DNA of 64,000 nucleotides from Tistrella mobilis. GTDB lineage: Bacteria; Pseudomonadota; Alphaproteobacteria; Tistrellales; Tistrellaceae. The position numbers and the translations under genes were made by a program. A model generated the notes under the pieces. It saw only the letters and a list, made by a program, of their open reading frames with translations. It was not told where the DNA came from and did no database searches. The stretch is from the NCBI RefSeq assembly GCF_039634785.1, contig NZ_JBBIAB010000005.1, forward strand, positions 310,001 through 374,000, given 5' to 3'. Below are positions 45,759-53,980 of this stretch, piece by piece (positions within the stretch are counted from its first letter, which is position 1; every line of letters starts with the position of its first letter).

Positions 45759-48077
45759 TCAGTCGCCGAACCGGTTATCGCGCGGGAAGCCGTTAGGGGC
45801 CAGCGCGCCCGGGCCGCCCCGGGCCTTGGTGATCCAGCGCGCCAGTTCAGGCATCAGCACCTTGCGGGTCTGCGGCCCCCTCTGCCAGGACAGGCCGTCC
45901 TGCGGCTCCACCAGCTTCAGGCCCCGCACATCCGACGGACCGCCCTGGCGATAGGTTTGCAACCGCACGCCCTTGCCCCGCGTCATATGTGGCACCTGAT
46001 CGATGGGATAGATCGCAAGCTTGCGGTTCTCGCCCACGATGGCGAGATGGGTCGCATCGGCGTCGATCCGGCGCACGAGCTTCAGCTTCTGTCCCTCGCC
46101 CGGCACCAGCACCTGGCGGCCGGTGCGGGTCTGGGCAACGGCATCCTCGGGCTTCACCATGAAACCGCGGCCGTCGCTCGCCACCAGCAGCAGGTCGCCC
46201 GGGGTTCCGGCCAGTGTCAGGGTCACGATCTGGGCGTCGGCTGCAAGATCCACCATCAGCCGCAGCGGTTCACCGAAACCGCGGCCGGGCGGCAGCTTGT
46301 CGCCCTGCAGCGTATAGACCCGGCCGTCATCGGCGAAGACCAGGATTCTGTCGGTCGTCTGGGCCTCGATGCGCAGCGCCTCGGCGTCGCCCTCCTTGAA
46401 ACGCAGCTCCTGGTCGGGCCCGATATGGCCCTTCATCGCCCGGATCCAGCCCATGGTCGACAGCACGACGGTGATCGGCTCGCGCTCGACCAGTGCCTCG
46501 ATCGAGACCATCTCGGTCTTCGGCGCCTCACCCGGCGTGGTCCGCCGGCGGCCCAGCTCGGTCTCAGGGCCGAAACGCTTCACCAGATCGGCAAATTCCA
46601 CATCCAGCGCATCCCGCTGGCGGCCTTCATCGGCGAGCAGCCCTTTGAGCTTCTTCTGCTCGGTGGTCAGCTGCTTGCTTTCGCGCTCGATCTCGATCTG
46701 CTGCAGCTTGTGCAGGGCGCGCAGCCGCATGTTGAGAATGGCTTCGGCCTGGACCTCGGTCAGCTCGAACCGCGTCATCAGCCCCGCCTTCGGCTCGTCG
46801 GCGGTGCGGATGATATGGATGACCTCGTCGAGGTTCAGATAGGCGATCAGCTGGCCCTGCAGCACTTCCAGGCGCCGGGCGATTTCCGAGAGGCGGTGCC
46901 TGGTGCGCCGGCGCAGGACCTCGATCCGGTGCTCGATGAAGGCGGCCAGCACGCCGCGCAGGCTCATCACCTGCGGCACACCCTCGGCGTCGAGCACGTT
47001 CATGTTCAGGCTGAAGCGATTCTCGAAATCGCTCTGGCGGAACAGACTTTCCATCAGCAGAGCCGGGTCGACATCGCGCGAGCGCGGCTCCAGCACGATG
47101 CGCACGTCTTCGGCCGATTCGTCGCGAATATCCGCCAGCAGCGCCAGCTTCTTGGCGGTCAGCAGCTCCGCCACCCGCTCGATCAGCCGGCCCTTCTGGA
47201 CCTGGAACGGAATCTCGGTGACGACGATCTGATAACGGCCATGGGCCAGATCCTCGCGATGCCACCGAGCCCTGACCCGGAAGCCGCCACGGCCGGTGGC
47301 ATAGGCCTCCGCGATCGAGGCCTTGCTCTCTACCAGCACGCCGCCGGTCGGAAAGTCGGGGCCCTGAACATGGCTCAGCAGTGTTTCATGCGGGCAGTCG
47401 CGATAGCGATCCTCGGGGCGGACGGCCGTGCCCTCGGGGAAGTCCCCGTCGGTCTTGCGATGGCCCAGCATCATGCGTGCCGCCTCGGCCAGCTCGGCGG
47501 CGTTATGCGGCGGGATGCTTGTTGCCATGCCGACCGCGATGCCGGTCGCGCCATTGGCGAGCAGATTGGGAAAGCCCGCCGGCAGCACCACGGGTTCCTC
47601 GTCGGTGCCGTCGTAATTGGCACGGAACCCGACGGTGTCGCGATCCAGATCCTGCAGCAGCAGCATCGCGACCTCGGTCAGCCGGGCTTCGGTGTATCGC
47701 ATGGCCGCGGCATTATCGCCGTCGATATTGCCGAAATTGCCCTGGCCGTCGACCAGCGGGTAGCGGAGCGCGAAATCCTGCGCCAGGCGGACCATGGCGT
47801 CATAGACCGCGGTGTCGCCATGCGGATGGTATTTACCGATCACGTCGCCGACCACGCGGGCGCATTTCTTGAAGCCCTGAGCGGGGTCGAGCTTCAGCTG
47901 CCGCATGGCGTAGAGCAGCCGCCGCTGCACCGGCTTCAACCCGTCGCGGACATCGGGCAGCGAGCGCGAGGTGATGGTCGACAGGGCATAGGCAAGATAG
48001 CGCTCACCCAGCGCGTCGGCCAACGGTACGGTCTCGATCAGCCCCGCATTGTCCGGGCTTCCGGTCTCGTCGCTCAT
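45759..48077 (-). CDS. parC: DNA topoisomerase IV subunit A
   Basis: A 772-residue type IIA topoisomerase subunit that decatenates daughter chromosomes with ParE. The winged-helix core has [60 protein letters not shown] and the catalytic tyrosine near residue 127 in [11 protein letters not shown]. The C-terminal domain has degenerate beta-pinwheel repeats and lacks the GyrA box, which separates it from gyrase. In the quinolone-determining region the usual serine is threonine (HPHGDT) and the acidic residue is aspartate. Its ATG overlaps the recO stop (ATGA), so the two are translationally coupled. Confidence 0.93.
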
Positions 48078-48862
48078 CGGATCTCCATCGGGTTGGTGCC
48101 GTCTGCGGAGGATGGTCCCCGGCCGCTCCGGCGCGCCAGCCTGTCGGCCAGCGCGATCCTGAGCGGCGGCACGGGCTGGCCGGCACCGGAAAACAGGTGT
48201 CGATCGAGGAAGTAAAGGGTCAGACGCAGGCCGTCAACGATCTCGGCGACCTCCACCGCATCCAGCGGCAGGCTGCGGGTCATGAAGCCCGGCAGGGGGA
48301 GCAGCCGCCCGGCCCAGGGCGCGCCAGCCGCCCGCGACACCGCCCGGCCGGAGCGGGGAGAGACATGGCTCAGATCCTCGGTCACCCCCGTCAAGGCACA
48401 GCTGCCGAGGTCAAGCCCATAGCCCAGATCCGCCAGAAGATCGCGCTCCAGCAGCACGAACGCGGCCGCCCAGACCGTTTCCGGTGCATGTTCGATGGCC
48501 GCGATCAGGGCGGCGGTCCGTTCGAAAAGCCCACCGATGCGCAGCCGGTCGGGCAGGCTGCGATCCAGCACCGCCGACAATGCGCCAAGGGCCGTCAGTC
48601 TCAAACCGTCGTCGATCAGCCGCCCGGCCGGTTCATCCAGCGCCTCAATCGTATAGCCGCCAAGCTGATCGTCCAGGCGCCCCCGCCAGGTGACCAGCAG
48701 CCGGTTGCCCGGCTCGATCGTGCCGCGCATACGCCGCCCTGCCCCGCCGCGAACCAGCCCCTGATGCCGCCCATGACCGTCGGTCAGGGCCGACAGCACG
48801 ACATCGGCCTCGCCATGGCGACGGGCGGCAAGCACGATGGCCTCCTCGGTCCACTCGATCAT
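48074..48862 (-). CDS. recO: DNA repair protein RecO
   Basis: A 262-residue recombination mediator that helps load RecA on SSB-coated DNA through RecFOR. The N-terminal OB fold is recognisable as [47 protein letters not shown]. The central helical part contains [18 protein letters not shown], the usual site of a zinc ribbon in longer family members; here only one cysteine remains, as in many alphaproteobacteria. The start at 48862 overlaps the end of the LysR gene by 4 nt on the same strand. The gene is followed without gap by parC, so LysR-recO-parC could be read through. Confidence 0.9.
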
Positions 48863-49797
48863 CCGGCCTCTCCCGCCGCGTTATCCTCGCCCGCCGTGAC
48901 ATGACGACGAAGCCCCGCCACCAGGGCATCGAAGACGACCCGGCAGCGCGGGGCCCGGCGCAGGTTCTCGTGCATCGCAACCCAGGTGTCCAGCACCAGC
49001 CCGTTCACTTCGGGCAGTATGCGGACCAGCTCCGGGCTTCGACGGGCGACGGCCAGCTGGCAGAAGCCAATTCCGGCCCCGGCCCGGATCAGCGCCAGCT
49101 GCGCCAGATCATTATCGGTCCTGAGCGCGAAGCGGGCGCGGGTGAACCCGGCCAACCCCTGCGCCGCCGCACCGGCCATGAACCGCCGGACTATGGCGGT
49201 TTCGCGGTCGAAGCCGATCAGCCGATGCCGTTCCAGATCCGCCGGCGTGCGTGGCACGCCGTGGCGCTCCAGATAGTCGCGGCGGGCATGCAGCCCCAGC
49301 GGCACAAAGCCCACGCGCTGCGCAACCAGCGCCTCCTGCATCGGCGCGACCATGCGCACCGCAATGTCGGCGTCGCGGCGCAGCAGATCTTCCACCGCGT
49401 TCGACAGCACGATCTCGATCGTCAGGCCCGGATGGGTCTCCTGCAGGGCGGCCAGAATCGGGGGCAGAACCTCGACCCCGATCACCTCGCTCGCCGTCAC
49501 CCGTACCGTGCCGGCCACCTCCGCAACCGATGCAGAGGCCGCCCGCAGCAGGGCCGATGCGGTCGCCTGCAGGGTTTCGGCATAGGGGCCGAGTTCGAGT
49601 GCCGCCGGCGTCGGCATCAGCCCGTGCAGAGAACGTGTGAAGAGCTGCTGACCGACGGCCTGCTCCAGTGCATCGACATGACGCCCGACCGTCGGCTGGG
49701 CCAGCCCCAGATGGCGGGCGGCGGCCGACAGCGACCCTTCCCGCAGAACCGCAAGAAAGGTGCGATACAGATCCCAGCTCGGGTCACCCATGGCCAT
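48859..49797 (-). CDS. LysR-family transcriptional regulator
   Basis: A 312-residue regulator. The N-terminal helix-turn-helix is WDLYRTFLAVLREGSLSAAARHLGLAQPTVGRHVDALEQAVGQQLFTRSLHG. The effector domain follows, with VRVTASEVIGVEVLPPILAAL and RRDADIAVRM. The start is uncertain. A promoter on this strand (49805-49832) would begin transcription at about 49798, so translation may start on the first bases, at ATG 49797 or 49791. ATG 49818 has a GAGG site but lies upstream of that start. The gene is divergent from an NAD-dependent epimerase gene, its likely target. The 3' end overlaps recO by 4 nt. Confidence 0.88.
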   Translation of the reverse strand: MAMGDPSWDLYRTFLAVLREGSLSAAARHLGLAQPTVGRHVDALEQAVGQQLFTRSLHGLMPTPAALELGPYAETLQATASALLRAASASVAEVAGTVRVTASEVIGVEVLPPILAALQETHPGLTIEIVLSNAVEDLLRRDADIAVRMVAPMQEALVAQRVGFVPLGLHARRDYLERHGVPRTPADLERHRLIGFDRETAIVRRFMAGAAAQGLAGFTRARFALRTDNDLAQLALIRAGAGIGFCQLAVARRSPELVRILPEVNGLVLDTWVAMHENLRRAPRCRVVFDALVAGLRRHVTAGEDNAAGEAG

Positions 49798-49804
49798 ACA
49801 TGGA

Positions 49805-49832
49805 AGTATAGCGGCCATAGGAACCTCGTCAA
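49805..49832 (-). promoter_or_regulatory. Promoter of the LysR gene
   Basis: On the minus strand: TTGACG (49832-49827), 16 nt, TATACT (49810-49805). Both hexamers are within one base of consensus. The predicted transcription start is at or within a base or two of the ATG at 49797, which implies a leaderless or nearly leaderless message. Confidence 0.6.
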
Positions 49833-49891
49833 TTTTCTGGCAGCCGGATCGGGGGGATGCTGGGGCCGTCGCCATCAGACGGAGCGAAGAG

Positions 49892-50875
49892 ATGAGCATG
49901 AGCGGTCAGGCCCTGATCCTGGGGGCCTCGGGCGGAATCGGTGGAGAGACGGCGCGGCAACTGGTCGAGGCGGGTTGGCAGGTCCGGGCCCTCAGCCGCC
50001 GCGCGACCTCGATGCCGGTCACACCGGGCATCACCTGGGTACCGGGTGACGCCATGTCGCCGGACGATGTCCGCAAGGCTGCGGCGGGGTGCAACCTCAT
50101 CCTGCACGCGGTGAACCCGCCCGGCTATCGCGACTGGCACCGGCTGGTGCTGCCGATGATCGATGCCAGCATCGCCGCCGCCCATGCCGTCGGCGCCACC
50201 ATTCTGCTGCCCGGCACCATCTATAATTATGGCGCCGATGCCTACCCCATCCTCACCGAAACATCCCCGCAGCACCCCGATACGCCGAAAGGTGCCATCC
50301 GCACCGAAATGGAGCGCCGTCTCGAACGGGCGGCAGATAGTGGCGTGCGCAGCATCGTCCTGCGCGCCGGGGACTTCTTCGGGCCCAGGCCCGGCAACAA
50401 CTGGTTCTCGCAATGCCTGGTACAGCCCGGCGGGCCGGTCCGTCGGATGACCCATCCCGGCCGGCCGGGCATCGGCCATCAATGGACCTATCTGCCTGAC
50501 ATGGCCGCCACCTTTTTGCGCCTGATGGCGATCCGCGACCGGCTGCCCGCCTTCACCACCCTGCACATGGCGGGTCATTGGGACCCGGACGGCACCGCCA
50601 TGACCGCGGCAATTGCCCGGGCCGTCGGCCGGCCGGTCAGGACGATCCACCTGCCCTGGCGTTTGCTTGGCCTCGCCGCGCCATTCGTGCCGCTGATCCG
50701 CAATCTGCGCGAGATGCGTCATCTGTGGCAGATCCCGATCCGGATGACCAATGACCGGCTGCGGGGGTTGATCGGCGACGAGCCGCACACGCCGCTGGAC
50801 GAGGCCGTCCGTCGGACCCTGACCGGTCTCGGCTGCCTGCCCCGGGCTCAGACGTCCCAGCCGGGATGGCGATAG
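49892..50875 (+). CDS. NAD(P)-dependent epimerase/dehydratase family protein (extended SDR)
   Basis: A 327-residue Rossmann-fold protein. The nucleotide-binding loop is ALILGASGGIGGETARQLVEAGW; the family catalytic Tyr/Lys pair is not in the standard YxxxK form (TIYNYGADAYP stands near its place). It belongs to the NmrA-like/atypical extended SDR group, whose members reduce substrates or only sense NADP. VLRAGDFFGPRPGNNWFS is a typical C-terminal-domain entry. The start at 49892 follows GGAGCGAAGAG. It is divergent from the LysR gene and probably controlled by it. The last 28 nt overlap the end of the convergent small membrane-protein gene. Confidence 0.83.
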   Translation: MSMSGQALILGASGGIGGETARQLVEAGWQVRALSRRATSMPVTPGITWVPGDAMSPDDVRKAAAGCNLILHAVNPPGYRDWHRLVLPMIDASIAAAHAVGATILLPGTIYNYGADAYPILTETSPQHPDTPKGAIRTEMERRLERAADSGVRSIVLRAGDFFGPRPGNNWFSQCLVQPGGPVRRMTHPGRPGIGHQWTYLPDMAATFLRLMAIRDRLPAFTTLHMAGHWDPDGTAMTAAIARAVGRPVRTIHLPWRLLGLAAPFVPLIRNLREMRHLWQIPIRMTNDRLRGLIGDEPHTPLDEAVRRTLTGLGCLPRAQTSQPGWR

Positions 50876-51372
50876 ATCATCGGCCCGTCATCCTCCTCCT
50901 CGGGGCCGCGCTTGGGCGGCGGGGCCGGCTGCGGGGCCGCGTAGAAGCGGGGCTCGCGCCGGTCCCAGGTGGGTTCATAGGGCGAGCGCATCTTCAGCCC
51001 GTTCTGGTTCTTATCGGCGTCGCGCATCGCGTTCTGCAACTGCTGGGCCTGTTTCAGGTCCCAGGGCAGAACGTAATAGCGCGGGATATTGCCGCCCTCG
51101 GGCTGGATCCAGAGATAAATCCCCTCGCCCTCTCGTATCACGGAACCCAGCACCGTGGCCTCGCCCGCCCCCTTGTCGAGCCATTCCATCGTGATCGGCT
51201 TGGGCTGTGACAACAGCGTCGTGAAGCCAAGATAGGCCGCGGGCAGCAGCAAGGCCGTCAGCCCGATGGCGGCCATCCGGACCGGCAGGCGCCGGGGCGC
51301 CCAGATCGCAAGCGTCGCAAGCAGGGCAGTGATGCCGGCTGTGGCGGCGAAGACATAGACGACATCGTTCAT
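50848..51372 (-). CDS. Two-helix membrane protein of unknown function, third member of the ExbB/ExbD-like cluster
   Basis: A 174-residue protein I cannot assign to a family. Two hydrophobic helices (about 4-25 and 33-55) are followed by a soluble region of about 120 residues. It has a beta-rich part (ITMEWLDKGAGEATVLGSVIREGEGIYLWIQPEGG), a helical part (DLKQAQQLQNAMRDADKNQNG), then Pro-rich and acidic sequence ending MIYRHPGWDV. It starts 15 nt after the ExbD-like gene and is surely in the same operon. The two helices may sit beside the ion-channel subunits. The end overlaps the convergent epimerase gene by 28 nt. Confidence 0.7.
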   Translation of the reverse strand: MNDVVYVFAATAGITALLATLAIWAPRRLPVRMAAIGLTALLLPAAYLGFTTLLSQPKPITMEWLDKGAGEATVLGSVIREGEGIYLWIQPEGGNIPRYYVLPWDLKQAQQLQNAMRDADKNQNGLKMRSPYEPTWDRREPRFYAAPQPAPPPKRGPEEEDDGPMIYRHPGWDV

Positions 51373-51387
51373 GCGTCTCTCCTTCCC

Positions 51388-52002
51388 TCACCCGCGATTG
51401 CTGCGCAGGCGCTGATACAGGCTGTTGACGCTGTCCGGCACCAGCCGCGCCTTGTCGTCGAGCCGGAACCGCATCGCAGTGATTTCCTCGCCCTCGCGGT
51501 TCAGCGCCACCTCGGTCGCCAGGATCTGCCGGGCCGAAGACTGCTGGTCGCTCTTGACGCTGGCGACGACCTTCACCCGCACGGGCAGCTGCCGGCTCTG
51601 ATTGCGGAACAGATGGACGTTCACGATGTACTCGCCCGGTGGAATGCCGCGGCTGTACGAGACTTCGTGATTGCTGTCGGTGGCGTCGCCATAGCGGCCC
51701 AGATCGTCACGCAGCAGGTTGAAGATCACCCCGCCCTTGTTGGAATAGCCGACCGGCACATCGCCCGGCGCCTTGACCCAGAGGTCGACATCGGTGTCGA
51801 GGTCGGCTTCCCACAGCGCCTCGACGATCACATTGCCGGGCGCCGTGACTTCCGCCTGATCCTGTTTGCGCGGCGGGTTGAGATGCGGCAGCAGCAGGAT
51901 GACCACAGCCACGAAACCGAGCAGGGTGAGCGTGATGACATCGCGAAAGACGGTCCCCGCGCCATCGTCACCATCGGGTTTGAGAGGGTCGTCATACAGC
52001 AT
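51388..52002 (-). CDS. ExbD-like single-helix periplasmic protein
   Basis: A 204-residue protein with a short cytoplasmic N-terminus, one transmembrane helix (about 21-41) and a periplasmic domain of about 160 residues. The helix opens FRDVITLTLLGFVAVVILLLPH. Asp21 followed by Val occupies the position of the proton-carrying aspartate of ExbD/TolR (PFIDVMLVLL). The periplasmic part is not a normal ExbD domain. VIVEALWEADLDTDVDLWVKAPGDVPVGYSN and IPPGEYIVNVHLFRN read as a beta-sandwich, like modules that bind partner proteins or carbohydrate. The start at 52002 is inside the end of the ExbB-like gene (11-nt overlap). I propose an ExbD-type energy transducer with an unfamiliar head domain. Confidence 0.65.
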   Translation of the reverse strand: MLYDDPLKPDGDDGAGTVFRDVITLTLLGFVAVVILLLPHLNPPRKQDQAEVTAPGNVIVEALWEADLDTDVDLWVKAPGDVPVGYSNKGGVIFNLLRDDLGRYGDATDSNHEVSYSRGIPPGEYIVNVHLFRNQSRQLPVRVKVVASVKSDQQSSARQILATEVALNREGEEITAMRFRLDDKARLVPDSVNSLYQRLRSNRG

Positions 52003-52615
52003 CGCCTTCACCCCGCGCGACAAGATCCGCGACCAGGGTGACGGTGCCGCCCGCAAGGATCTGATAGTTCAGCCGAAGCCAGATGTGCAGGATGCTGCCG
52101 ACCAGCGTCGTCCAGAGAGCGATCGCCATGCCGTCGAGCAGCTGGGCGACCATCGGCCCGACCGCCGAGACGTCGGCGACACGGTTCTGATCGACGCCCG
52201 ACAGCGCCACGATGAAGCCCACCACCGTGCCGATCAGGCCCAGCAGAACCAGGCTGTCGGCGATGTAGCGCACATTGGATGCCCGGGCATAGAGCTTGGC
52301 CTTCAACCCTTCGGCCACCACCGGGCGGCGTGCCTCGGGCACGCGGGTCAACGTCGCGAGATAGGCGGCGACCCGGCCGTTCTTTGCCGGCTGGGCGCGC
52401 TTCAGATCGTTCAGGCCGTCGCTGATCTGGATGATCCGCCAGGCGCAGAGCGTCAGGCCGACCAGAAACACCGCAAAGATCAGAACCGAGATCCGGCTCG
52501 AATCCGAGGCGAGCACCCGGTCGATCCAGCCATGGACCCAGGCCATAGCCAGCCCGGCGGCCGCCACCATGTTCACCAGCAGGAAACGATAGATCAGAAG
52601 ATAGCGATGATGCAT
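51992..52615 (-). CDS. MotA/TolQ/ExbB-like proton-channel protein
   Basis: A 207-residue inner-membrane protein with four helices (about 5-27, 41-61, 115-138, 151-176) and a cytoplasmic loop between helices 2 and 3, the MotA/ExbB arrangement. The signature is in the last two helices: LVLLGLIGTVVGFIVALSGV and LLDGMAIALWTTLVGSILHIWL, matching the GTVxGM...GMxxALxTTLxG pattern of the family. It should assemble as a pentamer around the ExbD-like helices and pass protons inward. The start at 52615 has GAGGGGG upstream; a GTG at 52636 is less likely. It is the first gene of a three-gene operon. No tonB, tolA, pal or flagellar genes are near. Confidence 0.78.
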   Translation of the reverse strand: MHHRYLLIYRFLLVNMVAAAGLAMAWVHGWIDRVLASDSSRISVLIFAVFLVGLTLCAWRIIQISDGLNDLKRAQPAKNGRVAAYLATLTRVPEARRPVVAEGLKAKLYARASNVRYIADSLVLLGLIGTVVGFIVALSGVDQNRVADVSAVGPMVAQLLDGMAIALWTTLVGSILHIWLRLNYQILAGGTVTLVADLVARGEGDAV

Positions 52616-52900
52616 GCAAACCACCCCCTCGGACACGCGCGCCGCGGGCGCGGGTCTGGCCGCGCCATCGGCGTGGGACGGGGGGCGGGATCGGGGGCCG
52701 GCCGGGCGTGTCCGGCCCGGCGGGCGCTTGCGCGCACATCACCGGACCGGCAGCCGGATCGGCGCTGCGGGGTCCATGAACCGGACCGGGACCTCTCGCA
52801 GGAAACCCGCCCTCCTTTTCAGGAGGTGGTCGGGTACATGCGAGTGATCAAGCCGTTATTGAATGCTGTAACATCAATCCCTTGAGGGGATCCGGTGCGG

Positions 52901-53980
52901 TCAGCGGGGGTAGTCGAGGTTCATCTCGCGGTAGCGCTCGGGATCGTCGGCCCAGCTTTCGCGGACCTTCACGAACAGGAACAGGTGCACCCGGCGTTCC
53001 AGGATCTGCTGCAGTTCCGTCCGCGCTGCGCTGCCGACATGCTTGATCGTCCGCCCGCCGGCGCCGAGCACGATCTTGCGATGGCTCTCGCGCTGGACAT
53101 AGACCACCTGATCGATCCGGGCGCTGCCGTCCGGCTTCTCGGTCCAGGCTTCGGTCTCCACCGTCAGCGCATAGGGCAGTTCCTCATGCAGGCTCAGGAA
53201 CAGCTTCTCGCGGACGATCTCGGCGGCCAGGAAGCGGAGCGGCACGTCGCTCGCCTGATCTTCCGGATACATCCACGGCCCCTTGCGGGCGATCGCGGCC
53301 AGGGCGTCGGCCAGATCGTCGACGCCAGACCCGTTCTCGGCCGAAATCATAAAGATCCGGTCGAAGATGCCGAGCCCGTCCACCTCTGCCGCCAGCGGCA
53401 GAAGCTTCTCGCGCGCCAGCAGGTCGACCTTGTTCAGCACCGCCCAGGCGCGGCGCCCTTCGGCCTTCAACCCGTCCACGATCAGCCGCACATCGTCGGT
53501 GATGCCGCGCTTGGCATCGATCATCATCAGCAGCCCGTCGCCGGCATCGCCAGCACCGCTCCAGGCGGCCTGCACCATGGCCTTTTCCAGCCGGCGCTTG
53601 GGCCGGAAGATGCCGGGGGTGTCGATGAACACCAGCTGGGCCGGCCCGTGCATCGCGATGCCGACGATCCGGCTGCGGGTGGTCTGCACCTTCGGACTGA
53701 CGATCGAAACCTTGGAGCCGACCAGACGGTTCACGAGCGTCGACTTGCCCGCATTGGGCGCCCCGATGACCGCGAAGAAGCCGGTCTTCTGCTCGTCGAC
53801 CGGCACCGAGGCCGGAGCCTCGGGCGGCGGCAGCATGTCGAGGCCGTCGTCTTCGTCCTCGTCGTCGTCATCCCAATCGTCGTCGAGATCGGAGGTGAGC
53901 CCGCCTTCATGCAGGTCCTCGTCGCGGATCTCGTCTTCGGCGGGCGTCCCAGGGGTCTTGCCGGGGGTTTCAATCGTCAT
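52901..53980 (-). CDS. era: GTPase Era with an acidic N-terminal extension
   Basis: A 359-residue GTPase that assists 30S ribosome assembly. The G motifs are G1 GAPNAGKST (about residue 73), G2 QTTR, G3 DTPG, G4 NKVD and G5 SAENG. The C-terminal KH domain that binds the 3' end of 16S rRNA contains HRKIVLGAGGRTIKHVG. Typical Era proteins have about 300 residues. Here about 65 residues precede G1, with a strongly acidic run (DDDWDDDDEDEDDG, about 33-46) and then a Pro-rich stretch. The ATG overlaps the rnc stop (4 nt) and no internal start has a better site, so the extension appears genuine. It is the last gene of the long housekeeping operon. Confidence 0.96.
   Translation of the reverse strand: MTIETPGKTPGTPAEDEIRDEDLHEGGLTSDLDDDWDDDDEDEDDGLDMLPPPEAPASVPVDEQKTGFFAVIGAPNAGKSTLVNRLVGSKVSIVSPKVQTTRSRIVGIAMHGPAQLVFIDTPGIFRPKRRLEKAMVQAAWSGAGDAGDGLLMMIDAKRGITDDVRLIVDGLKAEGRRAWAVLNKVDLLAREKLLPLAAEVDGLGIFDRIFMISAENGSGVDDLADALAAIARKGPWMYPEDQASDVPLRFLAAEIVREKLFLSLHEELPYALTVETEAWTEKPDGSARIDQVVYVQRESHRKIVLGAGGRTIKHVGSAARTELQQILERRVHLFLFVKVRESWADDPERYREMNLDYPR

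Follow-up and report, generated by a model that had tools for sequence, protein, structure and literature searches.

A three-gene membrane cluster of Tistrella mobilis, shared by alphaproteobacteria and their phages, as a probable motor of the MotAB/ExbBD/TolQR class

What is the output of a membrane gene cluster that starts with a channel subunit of the MotA/TolQ/ExbB type and ends with a protein of no known family? The question is raised by three minus-strand open reading frames (ORFs) at 50848-52615 of a 64,000-nucleotide stretch of Tistrella mobilis DNA (contig NZ_JBBIAB010000005.1; the whole stretch is referred to as the window), which we call genes A, B, and C, or together the trio, each with an ATG start and a TGA stop. 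An earlier description made from the letters of the window (the sequence-only reading) had claimed a three-gene cluster with overlapping or abutting genes, and this is the arrangement we find: A and B overlap by 11 bases and B is separated from C by 15 (Table 1). We consider it likely that the trio encodes a small inner-membrane motor of the MotAB/ExbBD/TolQR class, with A as its ring, B as its axle and C as a third subunit, mostly driven by protons and acting on the envelope; relatives of such a motor power iron uptake and flagella.

A gene set conserved in cells and phages

Loci were located with B, after which A and C were looked for by profile; the synteny counts are limited to regions in which B has 700 bases or more on either side, and some loci (labeled L plus a number) come from the same or near genomes and are not all independent. 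A first pass with the single sequences of the window placed both A and C beside B in genome contigs with room for them. With profiles, all 17 genome contigs that were long enough (of 22; the other 5 were set aside as too short) hold the full trio, as do 36 of the 38 usable regions (of 40) from sampled genomes, for a cellular total of 53 out of 55. A scan of IMG/VR returned 272 pattern matches, 238 of which encode B relatives; 80 of these stretches were retained for examination and 6 of the 80 were set aside, leaving 74 contigs of which 68 hold the full trio (66 in the order A-B-C and 2 in the order C-A-B). Among isolated-phage neighborhoods the count is 5 of 6, the exception (L149) having a two-helix ORF after B that lies beyond the reach of the C profile. 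Joint conservation of the three genes in other genomes had been set beforehand as a point on which the sequence-only reading could fail, and it holds in cells, viral contigs, and isolated phages; because the trio is conserved elsewhere, a chance arrangement is ruled out. The two cellular regions without the full trio are L165 and L231. L165 carries two copies of B, with A and C not found nearby, and L239 and L240 each have two C-matching ORFs after B.

The B protein of the window is identical (100%) to a protein of Tistrella mobilis KA081020-065. Carriers of the trio are mainly alphaproteobacteria. Relatives of B were found in 61 of the 385 genomes sampled from this class, with E ≤1e-20 in 55 and a weak or incomplete match in six. 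Of 398 genomes sampled across the phylum, 18 gave a B match (two of them weak; three strong ones lie outside the class). Plasmid matches number seven among 72,556 records; all are from Azospirillum, with two places each, and they include a replicon of A. brasilense Sp7. A member of the MotA/TolQ/ExbB family is cited as up-regulated by FlcA in Azospirillum (PMC4264754), and this may be gene A or another member of the family.

The surprising part of this distribution is the presence of the trio in many phages; that it is both widespread and phage-borne is new beyond the sequence-only reading. Of 50,697 annotated phage records, 27 match B (25 of these with the window's own B as the query), all from Rhizobium or Sinorhizobium phages under 19 distinct names; B is annotated there as a hypothetical protein in 25 records and as p040 in two records of phage 16-3. 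Isolated phages that carry the trio include 16-3 and RHph_N34, and the carriers include temperate phage 16-3 together with relatives that have an integrase gene (the AP-16-3 phage is the subject of PMC10460002). A terminase search of the virus contigs matched 14 of 46 records, a count to be read with the facts that the same profile also matched 11 of 14 control genomes and that the contigs are often fragments. Contigs L067-L070 may be host DNA, as they stand among cellular rows or (L067-L069) in mostly cellular branches of the B tree. In that tree (119 rows; a quick tree, midpoint-rooted for drawing, that gives no direction of transfer) cells and viruses are mixed in both deep branches, with nine label changes of which at least four are forced by starred branches; one starred branch consists of 22 cellular rows alone, from several families. 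The best reading of these data is that the trio has been exchanged between alphaproteobacteria and their phages, and its common occurrence in both suggests a shared job at the cell surface.

Channel, axle, and third subunit

The sequence-only reading had assigned A the MotA/TolQ/ExbB channel signature in helices 3 and 4, and the family search agrees: A matches PF01618 (MotA_ExbB) with an E value of 1e-7 and 32.2 bits, against a Pfam cut-off of 22.9, over residues 106-190, which are those two helices. Hydropathy gives four hydrophobic segments, the second and third separated by a basic stretch of 60 residues (63-122) that is predicted to be cytoplasmic, and these segments and charges suggest that A is laid out like MotA but reaches only a short way into the cytoplasm. 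A profile of 25 A proteins aligned along 125 columns, helices 3 and 4 included (Prob 91), with an ExbB-type alignment that consists of two sequences and whose seed was the top match of A's own profile. Against solved structures the same profile found motility protein A (E 1.6e-6) and PomA (E 0.004), with TolQ and ZorA chains at E 0.06-0.6 only, a range also occupied by unrelated coat proteins. The two pore threonines of the motif are listed in Table 1 with their conservation; Thr130 is replaced by Asn in a subset of phages and in L030 and L232. Lys stands at this position in L225, L226, and L227, which are copies from outside the class. Viral A proteins often have 130-180 residues.

B has one hydrophobic helix, and within it, in the motif FRDV, Asp21 occupies the position at which the sequence-only reading had placed an Asp-Val corresponding to the proton-carrying aspartate of ExbD/TolR. 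The residue is present in the B of the window and in all 61 readable viral rows, and in 49 of 56 readable cellular rows (non-redundant; one viral and one cellular row were unreadable at this site), so that the site itself stands and its universality does not. The rows lacking Asp are L172, L228, L229, L230, L238, L241, and L242, with Val in six and Ala in one; the six Val-bearing rows have in common a Lys a few residues on. Most of the family thus looks proton-driven, with a minority that is perhaps not.

Behind the helix, the AlphaFold model of B contains strands only (mean predicted local distance difference test [pLDDT] 86.6). B has no Pfam match up to E 10. Aligned with an ExbD-type profile (27 matches), the B profile pairs at the helix only; aligned with DUF2135 proteins (nine matches), it pairs over 115 columns, residues 58-179, with Prob 92 and a pairwise E value of 6e-7. 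A Pfam scan of B relatives gave weak DUF2135 matches in 9 of 27, the best at E 0.0018. Compared with known folds, the sandwich matches TerD-titled structures with Z scores of 9.8 (138 residues, root mean square deviation 4.1), 8.5, and 7.7. Other rows are 2qng (function unknown in its entry; Z 9.3), further matches at Z 8.3, 8.0, and 6.3, and one vWA entry at Z 4.0; TerD-type entries lead the list. Foldseek alone, given the B model, returned nothing below E 0.001, and no significant alignment was obtained between the B profile and TerD proteins (17 matches). Five acidic residues of the domain (D71, D73, D99, D100, and E113) are nearly invariant in cells and viruses and a sixth, D106, is kept in nearly all rows, residues from which a cation site in the domain may be predicted. 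On profile comparison the domain is accordingly not that of an ordinary ExbD or TolR, and the beta-rich periplasmic part unlike ExbD that had been claimed for B is upheld. Membership of B in the ExbD/TolR family was also rejected on its own genome: a PF02472 search of the carrier genome recovers four ExbD/TolR-family genes and misses B, and since these four exist besides it, the trio is an extra system.

C consists of two hydrophobic segments linked by a short basic loop, followed by a PKP motif, a domain, and a tail. It had been described as a two-helix protein that could not be placed, and both the two segments and the lack of a family stand; what had been overlooked is an alpha/beta domain, predicted after the second helix with a mean pLDDT of 81.9. 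The tail, FYAxPQPxxPPK, is present in most of 22 aligned relatives, whereas viral C rows have few conserved positions and a tail below the cellular level of conservation. Searches of C against Pfam and NCBIfam gave no family up to E 10, a Pfam scan of the 22 C proteins returned no more than sporadic weak hits (E 0.0066 at best, for a single protein), and the best match to a solved structure had E 0.45. A fold-based identity was tried and not used, the matches being weak (for the soluble part, at best Z 6.2 to an eIF5A entry).

Table 1. Coordinates in the window of the three genes and of the sites and domains discussed
Feature	Coordinates	Strand	Description
Gene A	51992-52615	-	207 aa; MotA/TolQ/ExbB-like channel subunit
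Pore Thr130 codon	52226..52228	-	Helix 3, LIGTVVGF; Thr in 52/56 readable cellular rows
Pore Thr170 codon	52106..52108	-	Helix 4, ALWTTLVG; Thr in 57/57 cellular and 65/66 viral readable rows
Gene B	51388-52002	-	204 aa; ExbD-like transmembrane helix plus DUF2135/TerD-like periplasmic domain
Transmembrane Asp21 codon	51940..51942	-	Position of the proton-carrying Asp of ExbD
B periplasmic beta-sandwich	51445..51837	-	Residues 56-186; AlphaFold model, TerD fold match, DUF2135 profile match
Gene C	50848-51372	-	174 aa; two helices plus predicted periplasmic domain and proline-rich tail; no known family
C post-helix part	50851..51207	-	Residues 56-174, PKP motif to proline-rich tail; from alignment and model

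A proposed envelope motor and the competing readings

The trio would work like ExbB-ExbD and TolQ-TolR without B being a member of their family. It shares with them the channel motif of helices 3 and 4 in A, the pore Thr, the transmembrane Asp in B, and the order of ring gene before axle gene; it differs in that B carries a DUF2135/TerD-like beta-sandwich in place of the ExbD/TolR domain, A is short with four predicted helices, no TonB or TolA is nearby, and there is a third protein. From DUF2135 (PF09906) and TerD (PF02342) proteins, which the domain of B resembles in profile and in modeled fold, respectively, it differs in having no Pfam match itself and in sitting behind an ExbD-like membrane helix. 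The closest published idea that we found is in section 8 of PMC12204202, where TolQ-like genes adjoin vWA proteins with an Asp-bearing pore helix, mostly as heterologous pairs of unknown function; these pairs resemble the trio in placing a TolQ-like ring gene beside an Asp-bearing pore helix with a non-ExbD periplasmic domain, and the trio differs from them in its DUF2135/TerD-like domain, its phage carriage, and its subunit C, of which no counterpart is described in that section. The same paper lists the motors of the class as flagellar MotAB and relatives, gliding AglRQS, ZorAB, SiiAB, TolQR, and ExbBD, and argues that further ones await discovery. Among the matches listed in searches of the open-licence literature (titles and openings of abstracts) we found no published account of the trio or of a phage-encoded motor of this class, and DUF2135 is mentioned in none of the open-licence papers searched. 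To the few known machines of the class the trio would add one that has a third subunit and an output domain of its own, and it offers a tractable start, since isolated phages carry it (16-3 and RHph_N34 among others) and A. brasilense Sp7 has two places that match B.

In the motor that we favor, one of the 5:2 class, A would form a ring, pentameric by analogy, around an axle formed by B, dimeric likewise by analogy; Asp21 would be turned toward the pore Thr of A. Proton flow would move the axle, and the pair of beta-sandwiches would work on a periplasmic or outer-membrane target. C would be a third membrane subunit with its main domain in the periplasm, either bound at the edge or regulatory, and might relay or gate the motion, a part played by TonB and TolA in their own systems. 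Gene order, overlap, and joint transfer make a shared complex of the three proteins likely, and the module would function without fixed neighboring genes. In an infected cell, the phage copies would most likely have the host envelope as their target; in some phages they would work together with a trypsin-like protease encoded alongside, and in others they adjoin lysis genes. Known motors of this class are larger than the phage version. The bolder statement, that alphaproteobacterial tailed phages possess a complete and very small proton-driven envelope motor of their own, whose output domain and third subunit are not known from any motor, and use it on the host envelope during infection, we put forward tentatively, at somewhat less than even confidence.

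Several results weigh against the proposed motor and its use by phages. Contact among A, B, and C is deduced from synteny; C is poorly conserved between cells and viruses, and some of its viral matches are weak, down to E ~1e-4. The alignment of B with the ExbD-type profile is itself weak and confined to 25 columns around the Asp (P 0.04). The seven Asp-less rows retain the gene set and three Thr of A, and because they do so, proton coupling may not be universal; ion coupling may have been lost or changed in these copies. No neighbor is common to most loci. The comparison of neighbors covered 60 cellular regions, with genes called by a home-made program, and 143 of 198 listed viral neighbors; the latter were picked as the longest ORFs, a criterion that can mislead in G+C-rich DNA and makes their annotation a rough guide. 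Among them there was no conserved neighbor that names a function, and in the cellular regions the largest non-trio cluster was present in 17 of 60 and at no fixed place. Only 13 of the 62 non-redundant viral loci have an endolysin-type gene at a distance of up to about 6 kb (a raw count, by likeness to four seeds taken from the loci, of which three were confirmed by Pfam and the SleB-type one was named by eye), and other phage trios adjoin genes for gyrase, a late sigma factor, repair, or sugar-nucleotide functions.

Of the competing readings, the one that survives best, which we nevertheless regard as unlikely, makes the trio a membrane sensor or gated channel, in which the acidic beta domain of B would bind a divalent cation or a periplasmic ligand and control ion flow through A, with C tuning the response. 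The acidic residues of B are kept on both sides of the cell-virus divide, the domain resembles TerD (one entry of the TerD list, 2kxt, is titled with calcium-binding properties), and the cellular rows without the proton Asp still hold the trio. TonB and TolA have long linkers, and no long linker of either type is seen in B or C. The constancy of Asp21 in every readable viral row and in most cellular ones is, in contrast, what is expected of a driven motor.

Somewhat less probable still is a Zorya-like system directed against phages or against superinfection, which would serve defense in cells and exclusion of rivals in phages. The trio resembles ZorA-ZorB in being a set of motor genes outside the Ton, Tol, and Mot systems; all PADLOC rows for A are ZorA models (14 of 14, best E 4.9e-7), its presence in the class is patchy, and it is common to cells and to phages, temperate phage 16-3 and its integrase-bearing relatives included. 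However, A scores 20.4 bits against the 100-bit cut-off of an NCBIfam ZorA model and is short, B has no PADLOC match (and thus none to ZorB), C has only JukB at E 0.068, none of ten flanking genes is ZorC-, ZorD-, or ZorE-like, and the Tistrella trio lies amid core genes and not in an island. Zorya identity was therefore rejected. The claim that the output of the machine is not one of the Ton, Tol, Mot, gliding, or Zorya systems agrees with these family scores and with the partners missing from the ten flanking genes.

A further reading, which we judge improbable, takes the phage trio as mainly an aid to lysis or to opening of the envelope, and the cellular copies as captured phage genes. It draws on virus contig L131 (3697-7433), where a GH108 endolysin gene, two Rz-like spanin genes, and A, B, and C follow one another in a row, parts of this gene set being common to five related contigs, and on part of the group of the 16-3 type (L150, L106, and L108), in which genes for a lysozyme and a trypsin-like protease lie upstream. 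Yet the spanins already present beside the trio in L131 mean that it is no spanin replacement there, the examined stretch of 16-3 itself yielded no homologue of the lysozyme seed, endolysin-type genes are near only a minority of the viral loci, and the starred branch of purely cellular rows spans several families. The last reading, in which A and B are a divergent but otherwise ordinary ExbBD or TolQR pair working with a TonB or TolA encoded elsewhere and C is incidental, fits the relation of A to ExbB and a genome whose other ExbD/TolR-family genes make Ton and Tol systems probable, but is very improbable given that B has no ExbD domain and that C stays with A and B in cells and phages.

Neighboring genes and chromosomal setting

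Neighboring genes point to an envelope role for the motor without settling it. Six of the 60 cellular regions (L167, L169, L170, L225, L227, and L236) have a lipoprotein-like gene on the same strand downstream of the trio, and this gene is a candidate outer partner; of two such genes scanned, one gave a sub-threshold DUF3108-like match. A gene for a trypsin-like protease lies upstream in 15 of 86 viral loci (11 of the 62 non-redundant ones), at 1.0-1.9 kb from B, center to center, and was matched in none of the cellular loci. Both of the two examples scanned with Pfam match Trypsin_2, and the record of 16-3 describes this type of protease as typically periplasmic.

In the window, the sequence-only reading had noted that no TonB, TolA, Pal, OmpA-type, or flagellar partner is near, and the Pfam scan of ten flanking genes likewise found no Ton or Tol (TonB, TolA/TolB/Pal), OmpA, or flagellar gene. 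No phage gene was found among the ten, and the setting has the appearance of an ordinary chromosome. Upstream of the trio, on the same strand, are genes for an Era-type GTPase, RNase III, a signal peptidase, an ACPS-type enzyme, and PdxJ; on its other side are a plus-strand epimerase gene and then a LysR regulator, recO, and a topoisomerase IV subunit (all by Pfam), and a phosphoribosyltransferase gene is also among the ten. The Era-type gene and recO are adjacent in many bacteria; at 48074-53980 of the window, the trio, the epimerase gene, and the LysR regulator gene lie between them.

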